64,000 bases of DNA from Zoogloea dura (GTDB taxonomy: Bacteria; Pseudomonadota; Gammaproteobacteria; Burkholderiales; Rhodocyclaceae). Location of the stretch: the NCBI RefSeq assembly GCF_012927165.1, contig NZ_JABBGA010000009.1, positions 62,001 to 126,000 on the forward strand, in the 5' to 3' direction. Of this stretch, positions 33,029 to 40,317 are shown piece after piece. The translations under genes and the position numbers were made by a program. Position 1 is the first letter of the stretch. Each line of letters begins with the position of its first letter. The notes beneath the pieces were generated by a model. That model saw only the letters and a list, made by a program, of their open reading frames with translations, ran no database searches and was not told where the DNA came from.

Positions 33029-34133
33029 ATGGAAGCAGAACGCCTCAACGCCATCTCCAACAAGCTCGCCGACCTGAAGTCCCGGGAGCTCGAACTTCGG
33101 AGGTATCTTTGACTACGATACCAAGGCAGAAAAGCTGATCGAAGTCAGCAAGCAACTCGAAGACCCGGCCATCTGGAACGACGCCGCGTACGCCCAGGAG
33201 CTCGGCAAGGAAAAAAAGACCCTCGAAGGCATCGTGGTGACCCTGCAGGAGATCGAACAAGGCCTCGCCGACGGCAAGGACCTCTTCGAACTCGCCTCCA
33301 TGGAAGAGGACGAGGACACCATGCAGGCCGTCGAGGGCGACGTGGCTTCCCTCGAAGCCCGTGTCGGCGCACTCGAATTCCGCCGCATGTTCAACAACCC
33401 GATGGACGGCAACGCCTGCTTCATCGAAATCCAGTCCGGCGCCGGCGGCACCGAGGCCCAGGACTGGGCTGGCATGCTCGAGCGCATGTACCTGCGCTAC
33501 TGCGAACGCAAGGGCTTCAACGTCGAGCTGCTCGAAGAGTCCGAAGGTGAAGTGGCCGGCATCAAGAGCGCCACCATCAAGGTCGGCGGCGAGTACGCCT
33601 ACGGCTTCCTGCGCACCGAGACCGGCATCCACCGCCTCGTCCGCAAGAGCCCCTTCGACTCCAACGCGCGCCGTCACACCAGCTTCTGCTCGGTGTTCGT
33701 GTTCCCCGAGGTGGACGACTCGATCGAGATCGACATCAACCCCTCCGACGTACGCACCGACACCTACCGGGCTTCCGGCGCGGGCGGCCAGCACATCAAC
33801 AAGACCGACTCCGCGGTGCGTCTGACCCACGTCCCCACGGGCATCGTCGTGCAGTGCCAGAACGACCGCTCCCAGCACCGCAACAAGGACGAAGCCTGGT
33901 CGATGCTGCGCGCCCGCCTCTACGAAGCCGAACTGCGCAAGCGCCAGAGCGAGCAGCAGAAGCTCGAGGACGCCAAGAGCGACATCGGCTGGGGCCACCA
34001 GATCCGCTCCTACGTGCTCGACCAGTCGCGCATCAAGGACCTGCGCACCAGCTACGAAGTCGGTAACACCCAGGCCGTTCTCGACGGCGACCTGGACGGC
34101 TTCATCCAGGCCAGCCTGAAGCAGGGCGTCTGA
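33029..34133 (+). CDS. prfB: Peptide chain release factor 2, made by programmed +1 frameshift
   Basis: Recognises UAA and UGA stop codons and releases the finished protein. Translation starts at ATG 33029 and meets an in-frame TGA at 33110-33112 after 27 codons. The canonical shift site CTT-TGA-C with a Shine-Dalgarno-like GGAGG just upstream moves ribosomes to the +1 frame, giving 367 residues. The SPF anticodon-like motif (RKSPFDSN) and the catalytic GGQ ([15 protein letters not shown]) are present. It is followed closely by an unknown gene and the SMC cassette instead of lysS, its usual neighbour. Confidence 0.96.
33098..33113 (+). promoter_or_regulatory. prfB: prfB autoregulatory frameshift site
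   Basis: CGGAGGTATCTTTGAC matches the universal RF2 recoding signal: an internal Shine-Dalgarno GGAGG, slippery CTT and UGA followed by C. Low RF2 slows termination at this UGA and favours the +1 shift, so RF2 controls its own level. Confidence 0.95.
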
Positions 34134-35417: not shown

Positions 35418-36764
35418 ATGTCCGAAGTCCGCCTGGAAGAACTGCTGGCCCCCGGCGTCGCCGCCGACGACGTGCCTGAACTGGCCCCGCTGCTGGCCGC
35501 GCGCGCCCTGCTGTCGGCCTTCAGCACCCTCTTCCATGGCAGCGAGGCCGAAGTCCTGATGCGCCTGCTGGTACTGCGCGAGATCGGCCGTGAATCCGAA
35601 TCGCCGCGCTGGAGCCCCGAGCAGCTGCGCCAGCGCTTCGCCTTCCTCGACACCGTCAAGCTCGAGACCGTGCTGCGCCGCCTGCGCGGCAACGGCCTGC
35701 TCGACATCGGCGAAGACAGCCACTACGCCCTCTCCGACCTGGGCCGCAACGCGGTGGCGGCGGTCGGCATGCTGGTCAGCTTCAGCGCCGAGGACGACCT
35801 GGAGCTGGGCTTCCTCACCGCCCAGCTGGCCGGCCTGCAGGCTGTCGGCAGCGTCACCCCGGAAGCCCTCGGCCACCTGCTCGGCAAGCTCAACGACCTG
35901 GCCTGGCACTTCGAGGAGGCCATCGCCTCCGGCTCGGAATTCCGCATCGCCGACGCCCGCCGCAAGCTCTCCGCCAACACCCGCTGGATCGAGCGCGGCA
36001 CCGAGGTGCTGCACCAGCTGCTGGCAGACCCTGAGGTCCCCTTCGACCTCGCCCGGGTGGCCCAGCGCATCGGCCTGGCCCAGTCGCGCCTGGCGCGGGT
36101 GGACGCGGCCTTCCAGCGGGCCCTGAACAAGATCGAAGCCCAGCGGGTCACCCTGGGCGGCTCCGGCATCTCGTCCAGCGACGTGGCAGGCTGGCTGCGC
36201 CGCCTGGATGCCCGCGCCCTGGCCGCCCTGGCCGCCGATGGCGGCCTGTTGCCGGCACCGGAGCTGACCCTGCTGGCTGGCGGCCACGAGCTCCTCGACC
36301 GGGCCGAGCTGGCCCTCTCCGACGAGGCCCGCCAGATCGAGGCCGACATCGCCCTTCCCCCCGCCGAGGAAGCCCCCAGCCGTAATCAACCCGAGCAGGA
36401 AGACCTGCGCCTGCTGCAGCACTTCAGCCAGCGCCTGGCCCGCCTCGCCAAAGACGGCAGCGAGCCCGCCAGCCTCGCCCGCATGGTGGCCGGCGGCGGC
36501 TTTCCGGCGGCCTCCTACCGCCTGTCGCTGCTGGCCCTGCTGGCCGATGGCGGCGGCGAAGGCGGCGCCACCCCGGCCGACGGCCCCATCGGCGAGTTCA
36601 TGCGCCTGCCCCTCGACGTGCTCTTCGAGGCCACCACCGTAAAGGTCGGCGAAGACGAGATCGCCGCCATGTCCACCGGCCTGGTCGGCGCCAGGGGCAG
36701 CCTGCCCGCCGCCGAGGCCGTACCCGTGCTCGACGCCACCGAAACCCTGCCTGACGAAGCCTGA
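35418..36764 (+). CDS. MksF/JetA-like kleisin subunit of an SMC complex
   Basis: Predicted non-SMC subunit bridging the ATPase heads of a condensin-type complex. The 448-residue protein starts with a winged-helix region (about 35-115, EVLMRLLVLREIGRE ... YALSDLGRNAV). A long helical middle (about 130-240) and a second helical C-terminal region follow. The assignment rests mainly on operon order, size and fold pattern: MksF-MksE-MksB operons have about 450/230/950 residues and this one has 448/236/933. Sequence motifs for kleisins are weak, so this is inference. The stop overlaps the next start (TGATG). Confidence 0.72.
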   Translation: MSEVRLEELLAPGVAADDVPELAPLLAARALLSAFSTLFHGSEAEVLMRLLVLREIGRESESPRWSPEQLRQRFAFLDTVKLETVLRRLRGNGLLDIGEDSHYALSDLGRNAVAAVGMLVSFSAEDDLELGFLTAQLAGLQAVGSVTPEALGHLLGKLNDLAWHFEEAIASGSEFRIADARRKLSANTRWIERGTEVLHQLLADPEVPFDLARVAQRIGLAQSRLARVDAAFQRALNKIEAQRVTLGGSGISSSDVAGWLRRLDARALAALAADGGLLPAPELTLLAGGHELLDRAELALSDEARQIEADIALPPAEEAPSRNQPEQEDLRLLQHFSQRLARLAKDGSEPASLARMVAGGGFPAASYRLSLLALLADGGGEGGATPADGPIGEFMRLPLDVLFEATTVKVGEDEIAAMSTGLVGARGSLPAAEAVPVLDATETLPDEA

Positions 36765-37474
36765 TGGAACACCAGATCCGGACCCTCACCGCCCGCCTGC
36801 TGGCCAACCGCAGCCTGCCGCGCACCGACCCGCTGGTGCGTCGCGCGCTGGTGGACGAGAGCTTCCGCGTGGACCTCGACGCCCGCCTCGCCGCCGTGGG
36901 CCTGCAGCTCATCGACAACCCCTACGCCGAGCATGTGGCGGTGGCCCTGGCCGGCGACATGCACGAGCCGGTGTTCGGCGCCAGCCGCGAATACGCTGCC
37001 AGCAACATCGGCCTGACCCGCGACCAGTTGGCCCTGCTGGTGGTGCTGTGGTCCCTGATCATCCTGCCCAAGCGGGAACGCCAGGTGAACCGCCAGAAGC
37101 TCGGCGACGACGGCCAGGAAGACATGTTCGGCAAGGCCGCCCCGCTGGCCCATGGCGAAGAAGTCTCCGGCGCGCTGTCCGAAGCCTCCGTGCTGGCCGA
37201 CTTCGCCCCGGTGCTCGGCCACAAGACCTATGTGCAGGGCAAGCTCCTGTCGCGCCTGGCCCAGCTCGGCTTCATCGAGCGGCGCGGCGGCATGATCCAC
37301 GAAGGCCCGCTGCTTGACGTGCTGCTCGACTACCGCCTGCTGGCCGACCGCATCATCTACGGCACCCTCGGCGAAGTCCTGGCCCAGGCCGGCCACCCGC
37401 CCCCCGGCCAGGACGCCTTCACGCCCGCCGACGACATGCCCGACGACGCCGACTCCGAGCAGGAGGAATCCTGA
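36764..37474 (+). CDS. MksE/JetB-like (MukE-type) subunit of an SMC complex
   Basis: Predicted KITE-type accessory protein, 236 residues. It has two winged-helix-like parts, one around NIGLTRDQLALLVVLWSLI and one around LLSRLAQLGFIERRGGM, and an acidic tail (DDADSEQEES). It is coupled to both neighbours by one-base TGATG overlaps, implying fixed stoichiometry with the kleisin-like and SMC subunits. Assignment is by context and fold pattern, not by a diagnostic motif. Confidence 0.72.
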   Translation: MEHQIRTLTARLLANRSLPRTDPLVRRALVDESFRVDLDARLAAVGLQLIDNPYAEHVAVALAGDMHEPVFGASREYAASNIGLTRDQLALLVVLWSLIILPKRERQVNRQKLGDDGQEDMFGKAAPLAHGEEVSGALSEASVLADFAPVLGHKTYVQGKLLSRLAQLGFIERRGGMIHEGPLLDVLLDYRLLADRIIYGTLGEVLAQAGHPPPGQDAFTPADDMPDDADSEQEES

Positions 37475-40275
37475 TGTTCCACATCAAGCAACTCGAACTG
37501 GTCCACTGGGACTACTGGCGTCGCTTCAACCTGCCCCTGGACGCCCAGATCATCACCATCGTCGGCCCCAACGGCTCCGGCAAAACAACCCTGCTCGACG
37601 CCCTGCGCACCCTCTTCGGCCTGCGCTGCTCCGGCAAGCGCGACTTCCGCCGCTACGTGCGCCGCGCCAACCGCAGTTTTGCGTGGATCCGCGCGGTGGT
37701 GGCCAACCGTCCCGGCAGCACCGGCAAGCGCCCCTTCTTCCCCTGCCTCAAGGACGAGGTCACCCTCGCCTGCCGCATCCGCCGCGCCGGCGGCGACTGG
37801 ACCCGCGACTACGCCATCGCCGACGGTGACGTCTCCATCGAGGCCCTCGAGGCCCGCGAGGACAAGGTCGTCGAATGGGTCGGCTACCGGGACTACCAGA
37901 GCCGCCTGGCCTGGGGCGGCCTGACCCCGGCCATCGCCAAGGTGCTGGCCCTCGAGCAGGGCGACACCGACAAGCTCTGCGAATACTCCCCCAAGGCCCT
38001 GCTCGAGCTGGTCTTCGACGTCTTCGGCGACAAGGAGGTGCTCGACAACTACGCCGCCGCCCGGGAAGAACAGAACAACGCCGAGAAGGAACTGGCCGCC
38101 CTCGGCCTCGACCTGGACCGCCTGCGCGCCCAGGCCGAAGCCAAGCGCCTGGAGGCCGACCGCTTCCTCGAATGGAAACAGCTGGACGACGAAGCCCGCG
38201 CCCTCGGCGCCGAGATCGTGCCGCGCCTGGAAGCCGGCGAGCTGGCCCGCGACATCGTGCTGGCCCGTGACGACATCGCCCGCGCCCGCGCCGAATTCCA
38301 GCGCGGCCAGGATGAACTCGCCGCCCTCAAGGCCCGCAGCACCGGCGTCGAGGCCGAGAAGGCCGCCGCCGAGGCCGAGCGCAAGGCAGCCCGCAGCCGC
38401 GACCTGGAAGCCGAACGGCAACACCTCGCCGCCCACGACGAAGTCCGCGACGCAGAGAAGCTGCTGGCCGAGCGCAGCGCCCTGCGCGCCCGCCTGGCCC
38501 GCGAGGCCGGCGACGCCGCGGTGGACCTGGAAAGCGCCCACGCCAAGGCCGACGCCCGCCTGCTCCACCTGCAGCGCCAGGAGCGCGAGGCCATCGCCGC
38601 CTTCGAAGACAAGACCGCCCAGCTGCGTGCCACCCGCGAGCACCGCGGCCCGCCGGGCGACCCGGAAGTCAATCGCTTCCGCAAGCGCCTGCAGGAAGCC
38701 GGCATCGCCCACCGGGCCCTCGCCGAGATCATCGAGGTCACAGACCCAGCCTGGCAGGGCGCCGTTGAAGCCGTGCTGCGCCCCTATCGCCACGTGCTGC
38801 TGCTGGAACGCGAGCAGGACCGCCACGCCGCCTGGGGCCTGGGCGAGCAGGAACGCTTCCGCCACTTCATCGTGCCCGAACTGGAGACCGCGCCACCCGC
38901 CACCCGTGGCGCCCTGGCCGAGGTCATCCGCTTCGCCGACGCGGTGCCCCGCTGGCTGGCCGACCTGCTCAACCGCATCCAGCGGGTGGACGACGCCGAC
39001 GCCGCCCGCCGCCTGCCCCGCGAGACCGAATGGATCACCCGCGACGGCTACCACCGGGAGCGTCGCGGCGCCCGCCACCTGGGCAGCCCCACCGAATTCC
39101 ACTTCGGCGAACTGGCCCGCACCGCCCGCCTCAAGCAGCTCGACGCCGACATGCACAGCCTCGACGCCCGCCTGCGCGAGATCCGGCCACAGCTCGACGC
39201 CGCCAAGGAGGAAGCCGACGCCCTGCGTGCCCGCCTGCACGGCATCGAGGCCGCCCAGTTGCTGGCGGCCCGCGCCGAAGCCTTCGATGCCGCCGAAGCC
39301 GCGCTGCCCGCAGCCCGGGCCCGCCTGACCGCAGCCATCGGCGCCCGTGCCGAAGCCAAGGGTGACGTGGAGCGCATCGAGCAGAGCCTGCGCGGCATCG
39401 ACATCGAACTGGACCGCCGCAAGCGCGACATCGCCGCCCTCGCCGGGCGGGTCAATCAACTGGCCGCCGAGGCCGCCCCGCGCCGCGGCGAACAGGCCCG
39501 CCGCATCCTGCGCCTGCGCAAGCTGCGCCGCGGCATGCCGGCCGCCTGGCGGGACCCCCACGACAACGCGCGCCTCGCCGAAAAATATGGCGACGCCCGC
39601 GGCGCCCGCGCCGAACTGGAACGCCTGCGCACCCGCCTCGGCGACGGCGACTGGGTCACCGACGACACCGTGCTGACCCTCGCCTCCCGCCTCAGGGCCG
39701 ACGTGGCCGAACGGGAGAGCCAGTACCGCGAACGCGAACGCCACTGCAATGCGGCCCGCCACATCACCACCGAAGCCCGCGCCGCCTACATCGCCAAGCT
39801 GCGCGCCACGGTCCGCCAGTACGGCAAGAACCTGCATGCCCTCGGCGAGCTCGCCAACGTGGACGTGGACTGCCCCCTGCCGCACCTGGAAAACGACGAC
39901 CGCGCCCTGGCCGGCGCCGGCCTGGAAGTGCGCTTCGACTTCGACCGCAAGGGCGCTGTCGGCCTCAACGACGGCGAGGCCTCCGGCGGCCAGCAGGTGA
40001 TGAAATCCCTCATCCTGCTGATCGCCCTGCTGATGGACGAAGCCCGCCCCGGCGGCTTCGTGTTCATCGACGAGCCCTTCGCCCACCTCGACATCGCCAA
40101 CATCGACCGGGTCGGCACCTTCCTGCGCGCCACCCGCGCCCAATACCTGATCACCACCCCTGTGACCCACAACGCCAACGTCTTCGCCCCGGCCCAGCTG
40201 ACCCTGGTCACCCGCAAGAAGAAGCCCGGCGACGACTGGGCACCGCCGATCGGGCTGATCCAGCGCGCCCTGTGA
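37474..40275 (+). CDS. SMC-family ATPase, MksB/JetC-like
   Basis: Predicted DNA-loading or loop-extruding ATPase, 933 residues. Walker A GPNGSGKTT is at residues 31-39. A coiled coil runs from about 185 to 380. A hinge-like domain near 395-540 contains IIEVTDPAWQGAVEAVL, reminiscent of the SMC hinge pattern. A second coiled coil spans about 570-800. The C-terminal head has the ABC signature SGGQQ at 837 and Walker B FVFIDEP at 862, followed by the D-loop AHLD. Head, coil, hinge, coil, head is the complete SMC plan. It lacks an adjacent fourth gene: no MksG/JetD TOPRIM nuclease follows, and the next gene is a GGDEF cyclase. Wadjet-type defence is therefore less likely than a chromosome role. 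Confidence 0.85.
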   Translation: MFHIKQLELVHWDYWRRFNLPLDAQIITIVGPNGSGKTTLLDALRTLFGLRCSGKRDFRRYVRRANRSFAWIRAVVANRPGSTGKRPFFPCLKDEVTLACRIRRAGGDWTRDYAIADGDVSIEALEAREDKVVEWVGYRDYQSRLAWGGLTPAIAKVLALEQGDTDKLCEYSPKALLELVFDVFGDKEVLDNYAAAREEQNNAEKELAALGLDLDRLRAQAEAKRLEADRFLEWKQLDDEARALGAEIVPRLEAGELARDIVLARDDIARARAEFQRGQDELAALKARSTGVEAEKAAAEAERKAARSRDLEAERQHLAAHDEVRDAEKLLAERSALRARLAREAGDAAVDLESAHAKADARLLHLQRQEREAIAAFEDKTAQLRATREHRGPPGDPEVNRFRKRLQEAGIAHRALAEIIEVTDPAWQGAVEAVLRPYRHVLLLEREQDRHAAWGLGEQERFRHFIVPELETAPPATRGALAEVIRFADAVPRWLADLLNRIQRVDDADAARRLPRETEWITRDGYHRERRGARHLGSPTEFHFGELARTARLKQLDADMHSLDARLREIRPQLDAAKEEADALRARLHGIEAAQLLAARAEAFDAAEAALPAARARLTAAIGARAEAKGDVERIEQSLRGIDIELDRRKRDIAALAGRVNQLAAEAAPRRGEQARRILRLRKLRRGMPAAWRDPHDNARLAEKYGDARGARAELERLRTRLGDGDWVTDDTVLTLASRLRADVAERESQYRERERHCNAARHITTEARAAYIAKLRATVRQYGKNLHALGELANVDVDCPLPHLENDDRALAGAGLEVRFDFDRKGAVGLNDGEASGGQQVMKSLILLIALLMDEARPGGFVFIDEPFAHLDIANIDRVGTFLRATRAQYLITTPVTHNANVFAPAQLTLVTRKKKPGDDWAPPIGLIQRAL

Positions 40276-40317
40276 TGCCATCCTCTTCATGGTCCACACA
40301 GCCCGCCAGGAACGGCC

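Follow-up and report, generated by a model that had tools for sequence, protein, structure and literature searches.

In a 64,000-nucleotide stretch of the Zoogloea dura genome (contig NZ_JABBGA010000009.1, positions 62,001 to 126,000, forward strand; hereafter the window) we identified an operon of three genes encoding a kleisin-like protein, a KITE protein and an SMC (structural maintenance of chromosomes) ATPase. We use K, E and S as shorthand for these genes, KES for the trio, and G for the JetD-homologue gene that accompanies it in some relatives. The explanation that we favour, with a probability of about 0.62, is that KES is a deeply divergent complex of the Wadjet/Mks group that acts on the chromosome without a nuclease, that JetD has been gained or lost repeatedly around it, and that, in two genera, no SMC complex other than KES was detected. 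We place KES in the Wadjet/Mks group on the strength of its architecture and of the relatives that carry JetD.

A compact kleisin-KITE-SMC operon

The three genes form a tight plus-strand operon in which the K/E and E/S junctions both read TGATG, a one-base overlap of stop and start. The first-pass annotation had described three such overlapping genes resembling MksF, MksE and MksB, and the open reading frames (ORFs), the junctions, the architecture and the predicted folds bear that description out. The features are as follows.

35418 to 36764, + strand: K, kleisin-like subunit (MksF/MukF-like); ORF of 448 residues
36764 to 37474, + strand: E, KITE subunit (MksE/JetB-like), tandem winged helix by predicted fold; ORF of 236 residues
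37474 to 40275, + strand: S, SMC ATPase with a head-coil-hinge-coil-head plan; ORF of 933 residues, Pfam SMC_N and alignment
37564 to 37587, + strand: Walker A of S, GPNGSGKT, residues 31-38; motif and alignment
38710 to 39015, + strand: hinge region of S, residues 413-514; Pfam SMC_hinge and profile match to 4rsj
39982 to 39996, + strand: ABC signature SGGQQ of S, residues 837-841; motif and alignment
40057 to 40092, + strand: Walker B and D-loop FVFIDEPFAHLD of S, residues 862-873; motif and alignment
40276 to 40288, + strand: 13-base gap between S and a GGDEF gene; G occupies the same place in Zoogloea locus L079

No TOPRIM gene adjoins KES in the window, as had been noted for JetD/MksG, since the GGDEF gene starts 13 bases past the S stop. 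Canonical Smc and ScpA are encoded elsewhere in the same genome.

By its motifs, S is an intact SMC ATPase. It matches Pfam SMC_N at 1e-16, and the SGGQQ signature is invariant in all 18 rows of the S alignment (window included), in which Walker A varies only at the nearly invariant P32 and Walker B only at F862. The alignments are A1 (S, 18 rows), A2, A3, A4 (K, 43 rows) and A5 (E, 42 rows). The hinge reaches an E value of 5.1e-4 and 20.9 bits against the Pfam SMC hinge, slightly below the cut-off of 22.5, and residues 342-591 match the Smc structure 4rsj, which we take to be a hinge construct. The SMC plan, signature and hinge first read from the sequence are thereby corroborated, with Walker A, signature and Walker B all in place. 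The PADLOC JetC model PDLC00519 matches S at 2.1e-26, a partial match whose best stretch spans residues 193-683. With its motifs intact, S falls within the size rule that PMC7617805 gives for the Wadjet/MksBEF(G) group, an SMC ATPase of more than 890 residues with Walker motifs.

Predicted folds of E and K

The AlphaFold model of E (mean predicted local distance difference test score, pLDDT, 69.3) contains two winged-helix-like units. Foldseek returned three rows below 0.001, all of them JetABC structures, with 8as8_C at an E value of 1e-5; VIA also places 8as8_C first (Z 12.3, root-mean-square deviation, rmsd, 3.0 over 160 aligned residues), and lists further KITE proteins, namely Nse1/Nse3 complexes and MukE. 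Both 8as8_C and 8dk1_E are JetB chains. The weak matches of two of the 42 E relatives to DUF4194 and JetB1 agree with this JetB-like fold, and we predict that E is a KITE protein with tandem winged helices, closest to JetB.

The assignment of K is on weaker evidence. In its model (mean pLDDT 84.6) a winged helix at the N terminus is followed by a long helical middle and a C-terminal domain with strands. In VIA, MukF chains fill the first four rows (Z 11.3-10.5, rmsd 10.6-11.5, 192-196 residues aligned), and MukF of 7nz2 covers residues 37-426 of the model at Z 9.9 and rmsd 25.4; no Foldseek row fell under 0.001. JetA is missing from the 50 fold rows listed for K, which excludes nothing. Because the leading MukF rows have rmsd above 10 and MarR-like winged helices rank close behind them, we call K kleisin-like, probably closest to MukF, and not a proven kleisin.

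Sequence models recognise neither protein. Window K and E have no credible family match among Mks, Muk and Jet models, MksF/MksE and JetA/JetB included, so that the comparison put forward in the first-pass annotation came back empty; they match neither ScpA nor ScpB in Pfam, and a sequence search of the Protein Data Bank (PDB) gave nothing useful. JetB from a separate Wadjet operon (L069) likewise matched no PDB chain. The proposed kinship of K and E with MksF and MksE is therefore upheld by the predicted folds and the weak DUF4194/JetB matches among E relatives, and not by any model match of the window proteins. The Pfam and PADLOC copies used hold no model of their own for K or E, and annotation from those libraries therefore overlooks KES. 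As a separate observation, PADLOC JukB is weakly matched by nine of the 43 K relatives, with a best value of 5.3e-5.

Comparison with known systems

KES shares with Wadjet type I (JetABCD) and MksBEFG the kleisin-KITE-SMC gene order, the JetB-like fold of E and, in its relatives, a JetD homologue as fourth gene. It differs from them in that S has 933 residues whereas the 12 JetC rows used for comparison have 1120-1170, that window K and E are unrecognised by Jet models and unalignable by profile, and that the nuclease is absent from the window's genome. Like MukBEF, which is the sole SMC complex in its hosts, KES of the window has no nuclease and has a K fold nearest MukF, but MukB is 1486 residues long and its N-terminal model gives only 12.7 bits on S, below the cut-off of 23. 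With Smc-ScpAB it shares the SMC head, signature and hinge plan, whereas S lies far below equivalog level for SMC_prok_B (110.3 bits against a cut-off of 567.35) and the partners are not ScpA or ScpB. The MksBEF of Pseudomonas aeruginosa, which PMC10586767 and PMC7485682 describe as nuclease-less, coexisting with SMC and contributing to chromosome organisation, is alike as a nuclease-less Mks-type complex beside SMC.

Distribution and conservation of KES

Results for named genomes refer to the best 80 of 504 relatives; S-profile genome searches covered samples of the order, the class and one family, and for relatives the longest frame was taken as the gene. Of 150 genomes of the order, 23 encode a full-length S, the window's own among them, and S of the other carriers is 45-67% identical; this recurrence indicates that the cassette is not a chance assembly. 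The remaining 7 genomes of the order tally have short or weak ATPase matches only. In the class sample, 2 of 369 genomes carry full-length S, again counting our own. The named relatives are mostly betaproteobacteria, plus a Vulcaniibacterium and some metagenome-assembled genomes. Window S is 87-89% identical to five Zoogloea loci and 86-87% to two loci labelled only Proteobacteria.

Of 20 relatives, 19 have K and E close to S, some with inserted genes, and the contig of the twentieth starts at S. Among the 80 named loci, K could be read at 73, E at 77 and S at 79; several of the misses are contig ends. Some loci depart from the compact arrangement. At L107 (Pseudothauera nasutitermitis) S stands without K or E within 7 kb on either side, and at the Thauera loci L085, L086, L093, L098, L120 and L089 between 0.9 and 6 kb separate E from S. 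A 178-residue ORF, GNAT-like by reading only, lies between E and S at L045 (9390-9926, + strand; Chitinibacter G004) and at L048 (9055-9591, - strand; its sister G054).

Two genera with no SMC complex detected other than KES

One genome of the order sample, G004, is a single contig that carries KES and in which canonical SMC and ScpA were not found; its best SMC_prok_B match is S itself. We therefore searched its whole family of 43 genomes, which appears to be Chitinibacteraceae from its members G155 (Chitinibacter sp. GC72) and G185 (Silvimonas amylolytica). KES is present in 42 of the 43, the exception (G172) being 6% contaminated and having SMC. SMC scores over its cut-off in 28 genomes and ScpB in 28, and the same 15 genomes lack both. 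These 15 are all six members of one genus (g8; Chitinibacter, from G155) and all nine of a second (g97), which may be Iodobacter. Every one of the 15 carries KES, and five are single-contig assemblies. The ScpA search belongs to the order sample and among these 15 genomes covers G004 only.

Two further SMC-type systems were sought in the same genomes. MukB was rejected: PF04310 matches occur in 11 of the 15, but they are faint (21.7-24.3 bits, some above the cut-off of 23) and their frames, of 255-521 residues, are not MukB-sized. DUF3375, of the Wadjet JetA type, is found in three of the 15, once as a fragment.

On a 22-row tree of K, E and S together, branches with good support force two changes of the SMC-less label, and G054, the sister of Chitinibacter, keeps SMC. 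The absence of Smc and ScpB from the two genera is best read as two independent losses, and Smc was probably lost rather than gained in this family. In four pairs from the two genera, S has a ratio of nonsynonymous to synonymous substitution rates (dN/dS) of 0.018-0.036.

A chromosome role is favoured because 15 genomes without Smc and ScpB keep KES. The first-pass annotation had preferred such a role to Wadjet defence; that preference gains from these genomes, although the lack of a nuclease, as described below, does not define the system. KES would work as a loop extruder: two S subunits would join at the hinge, K would bridge their ATPase heads and an E dimer would bind K, while ATP cycles, to judge from the fold family, would drive DNA entrapment and loop formation. 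In the window's Zoogloea the remaining KES most likely works on the chromosome alongside Smc-ScpAB. In the two Chitinibacteraceae genera it presumably took over condensin duty, since it is the only SMC complex found there. MukBEF assumed that duty in enterobacteria.

A JetD homologue behind S in many relatives

In many relatives S is immediately followed by a gene of about 405 residues, G. These relatives include two Zoogloea (L079, in whose genome G is present, and L081, where a contig end cuts it off). Against PADLOC JetD1, all 19 aligned members match, with a best E value of 2.3e-22; an alignment of G with JetD over 294 columns keeps the TOPRIM glutamate and DxD in register (E value 3.8e-5, probability 71%). 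Judged by these alignments, G is a JetD homologue. The absence of a nuclease, which had been treated as the defining trait of the cassette, is consequently a property of some members only. In part of the family G may complete a four-gene, presumably anti-plasmid system.

A search with the G profile, scoring at most 23 candidates per genome, was positive in 13 of the 80 genomes searched, that is 13 of the 71 with KES and none of the nine without. In 11 of these 13, G follows S immediately (the copy in G131 being truncated where its contig ends). In the two others, both Chromobacterium, it is unlinked, and no second KES lies within the surrounding 17-18 kb:

L207, 7604 to 8848, + strand: standalone G
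L208, 7793 to 9487, - strand: standalone G without one TOPRIM Asp

In G131, contigs C59 and C171 (L206 and L199) hold two overlapping G stretches, one cut off behind S and one elsewhere. The G of L106 lies 5.4 kb away. Among 117 S-bearing locus rows, duplicates included, 32 have G, 75 have at least 1.5 kb of downstream sequence without it, and 10 are undecided. None of the 15 Smc/ScpB-less genomes matched the G profile.

The catalytic acids are not always kept. In Crenobacter (L140 and L147, 9810-11015) the frame of G persists but the TOPRIM E has become Q and the second D has become S; Chromobacterium L202 has D to A and L132 has D to H. The other 35 of the 39 rows that cover the motifs, with overlapping loci counted repeatedly, retain these acids.

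PF09664 detected the KES-adjacent G in only one of 37 genomes searched (G095), so generic JetD models alone would miss G elsewhere. In the window's assembly no JetD was matched by PF09983, by PF09664 or by the family-specific G profile, and no G was matched in five other Zoogloea-like genomes (L080, L082, L083, L084 and L119, two of them labelled only Proteobacteria). Lacking the nuclease, the window's KES should not be filed as a Wadjet system. We also rejected the possibility that JetD of KES carriers serves KES remotely: of the six among 23 order carriers with a PF09983 match, four (G032, G046, G056 and G077) hold JetD in a JetABCD-like operon of its own, and the matches in the other two, G054 and G120, are weak (24.4 and 24.8 bits). 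The earlier idea of a distant nuclease may thus apply to some relatives, given the unlinked G of Chromobacterium, but not to the window's genome.

Evolution of G and weighing of the alternatives

Distances of G and S correlate at 0.80 over 26 loci, with none of 2000 permutations as high, and the main clades of the two trees agree. When presence or absence of G is mapped onto an S tree of 110 distinct rows rooted at the midpoint, a minimum of 13 changes is required, against a mean of 24.8 and a lowest value of 18 in shuffles; G was scored locus by locus, duplicate loci and 10 undecided rows included. G may have been gained as well as lost along this tree.

Several observations weigh against the explanation that we favour. 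KES is patchy across the order (23 of 150). SMC is outright missing in 1 of 23 KES carriers and 2 of 127 others, with five more having SMC fragments only, and SMC absence among the 150 order genomes is not clearly enriched in KES carriers. The latter two genomes, G008 and G057, rated 100% complete, have no SMC, ScpA, KES or MukB match, so Smc loss does not require KES. The PF09983 search covers one of the 15 SMC-less genomes (G004). Profile-profile comparison finds no similarity of K and E to JetA/JetB or MukF/MukE, by a method that also misses JetA against MukF and with Escherichia coli MukF and MukE entered as single sequences. In a tree of ATPase heads S, JetC and SMC each form one clade, but the joining order differs between two versions: with SMC rows about 60 residues short S joins JetC and MukB, and with corrected SMC rows it joins SMC at 94/78. 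Finally, evolution of G by losses alone needs 35 losses where 13 changes suffice.

The last point bears on an alternative that is compatible with our explanation and that we hold to be possible, if on balance unlikely, in which an ancient chromosomal SMC complex acquired G, a mobile accessory, on several occasions, so that defence grew from a condensin. The Fitch count on the S tree gives an ancestor without G, and in Silvimonas G evolves faster, its dN/dS being 0.147 where K, E and S have 0.024-0.041, a difference that the pairs L134/L148 and L036/L139 do not show; the concordance of the G and S trees tells against repeated capture. Distinctly less probable is that KES without G is still a plasmid defence, capturing and compacting or silencing plasmids alone or recruiting an unrelated nuclease from another locus. 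Wadjet is known to act on circular DNA (PMC10586767; PMC10512200), JetD stands beside S in relatives, and the two Chromobacterium genomes retain an unlinked copy; but the window's genome has no JetD_C, DUF2399 or G match, retention in 42 of 43 genomes of one family and housekeeping locations are unlike a defence island, and KES persists where Smc and ScpB are gone. That the window's KES is the degenerating relic of a defence system that once had four genes and has lost its effector would fit the absence of G from it and five other Zoogloea-like genomes and the lost TOPRIM acids of Crenobacter, but is improbable given intact frames and ATPase motifs, K, E and S all kept at the G-less loci L080, L082, L083, L084 and L119, and dN/dS between the window and L080 of 0.175-0.233 across the three genes, probably inflated by GC content at third codon positions (GC3) above 0.9.

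The dN/dS values derive from stop-to-stop frames, some upstream codons included, and have no housekeeping-gene yardstick. Zoogloea values of 0.06-0.26 lie above those of Chitinibacter; GC3 of about 0.9 or more probably depresses dS and so raises them.

Implications for the Wadjet/Mks group

A review proposes that MukBEF and MksBEF descend from Wadjet, MksBEF through loss of JetD (PMC10586767). It is tempting to speculate, and we put the odds a little short of even, that in betaproteobacteria a Wadjet-type defence SMC became a housekeeping condensin independently of MukBEF. Its stages would survive as KES with JetD, JetD unlinked in Chromobacterium, ruined TOPRIM acids in Crenobacter, JetD lost in this Zoogloea, and KES as the sole SMC complex after Smc-ScpAB was lost twice, in Chitinibacter and a second Chitinibacteraceae genus. 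The KES family would then display the proposed Wadjet-to-Mks transition in living, mostly environmental genera and in several intermediate states, which makes the idea directly testable, and two of these genera seem to rely on a little-known SMC complex as their sole one.

Wadjet-group members without JetD and the chromosome-organising MksBEF of P. aeruginosa are already known (PMC10586767; PMC7617805). Within the literature searched, as far as its accessible text extends, the KES family itself, its patchy and decaying JetD and the genera that live with KES alone are apparently new: we found no description of the family in Chitinibacteraceae or Zoogloea in sources including PMC7485682, PMC10586767, PMC7617805, PMC10512200 and PMC10123090, although the operon list of PMC7617805 may contain it.

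Neighbouring genes

In the window KES is preceded by prfB and a gene for an anchored protein and followed by the GGDEF gene and lysS (prfB and lysS identified by reading translations). The anchored protein had been suggested as a partner of the complex; we rejected it as a KES subunit, since at E values below 1e-20 it is confined, among the 80 named loci, to Zoogloea-like and Methyloversatilis loci and is not a stable companion. Both prfB and lysS are present at 21 of the 80 named loci, and some KES loci sit behind rplU-rpmA-obgE, by reading of N-termini. The window's prfB carries an RF2-type programmed +1 frameshift at 33080-33115, where the first frame stops (...RRYL*) at CTTTGAC and the next frame continues.

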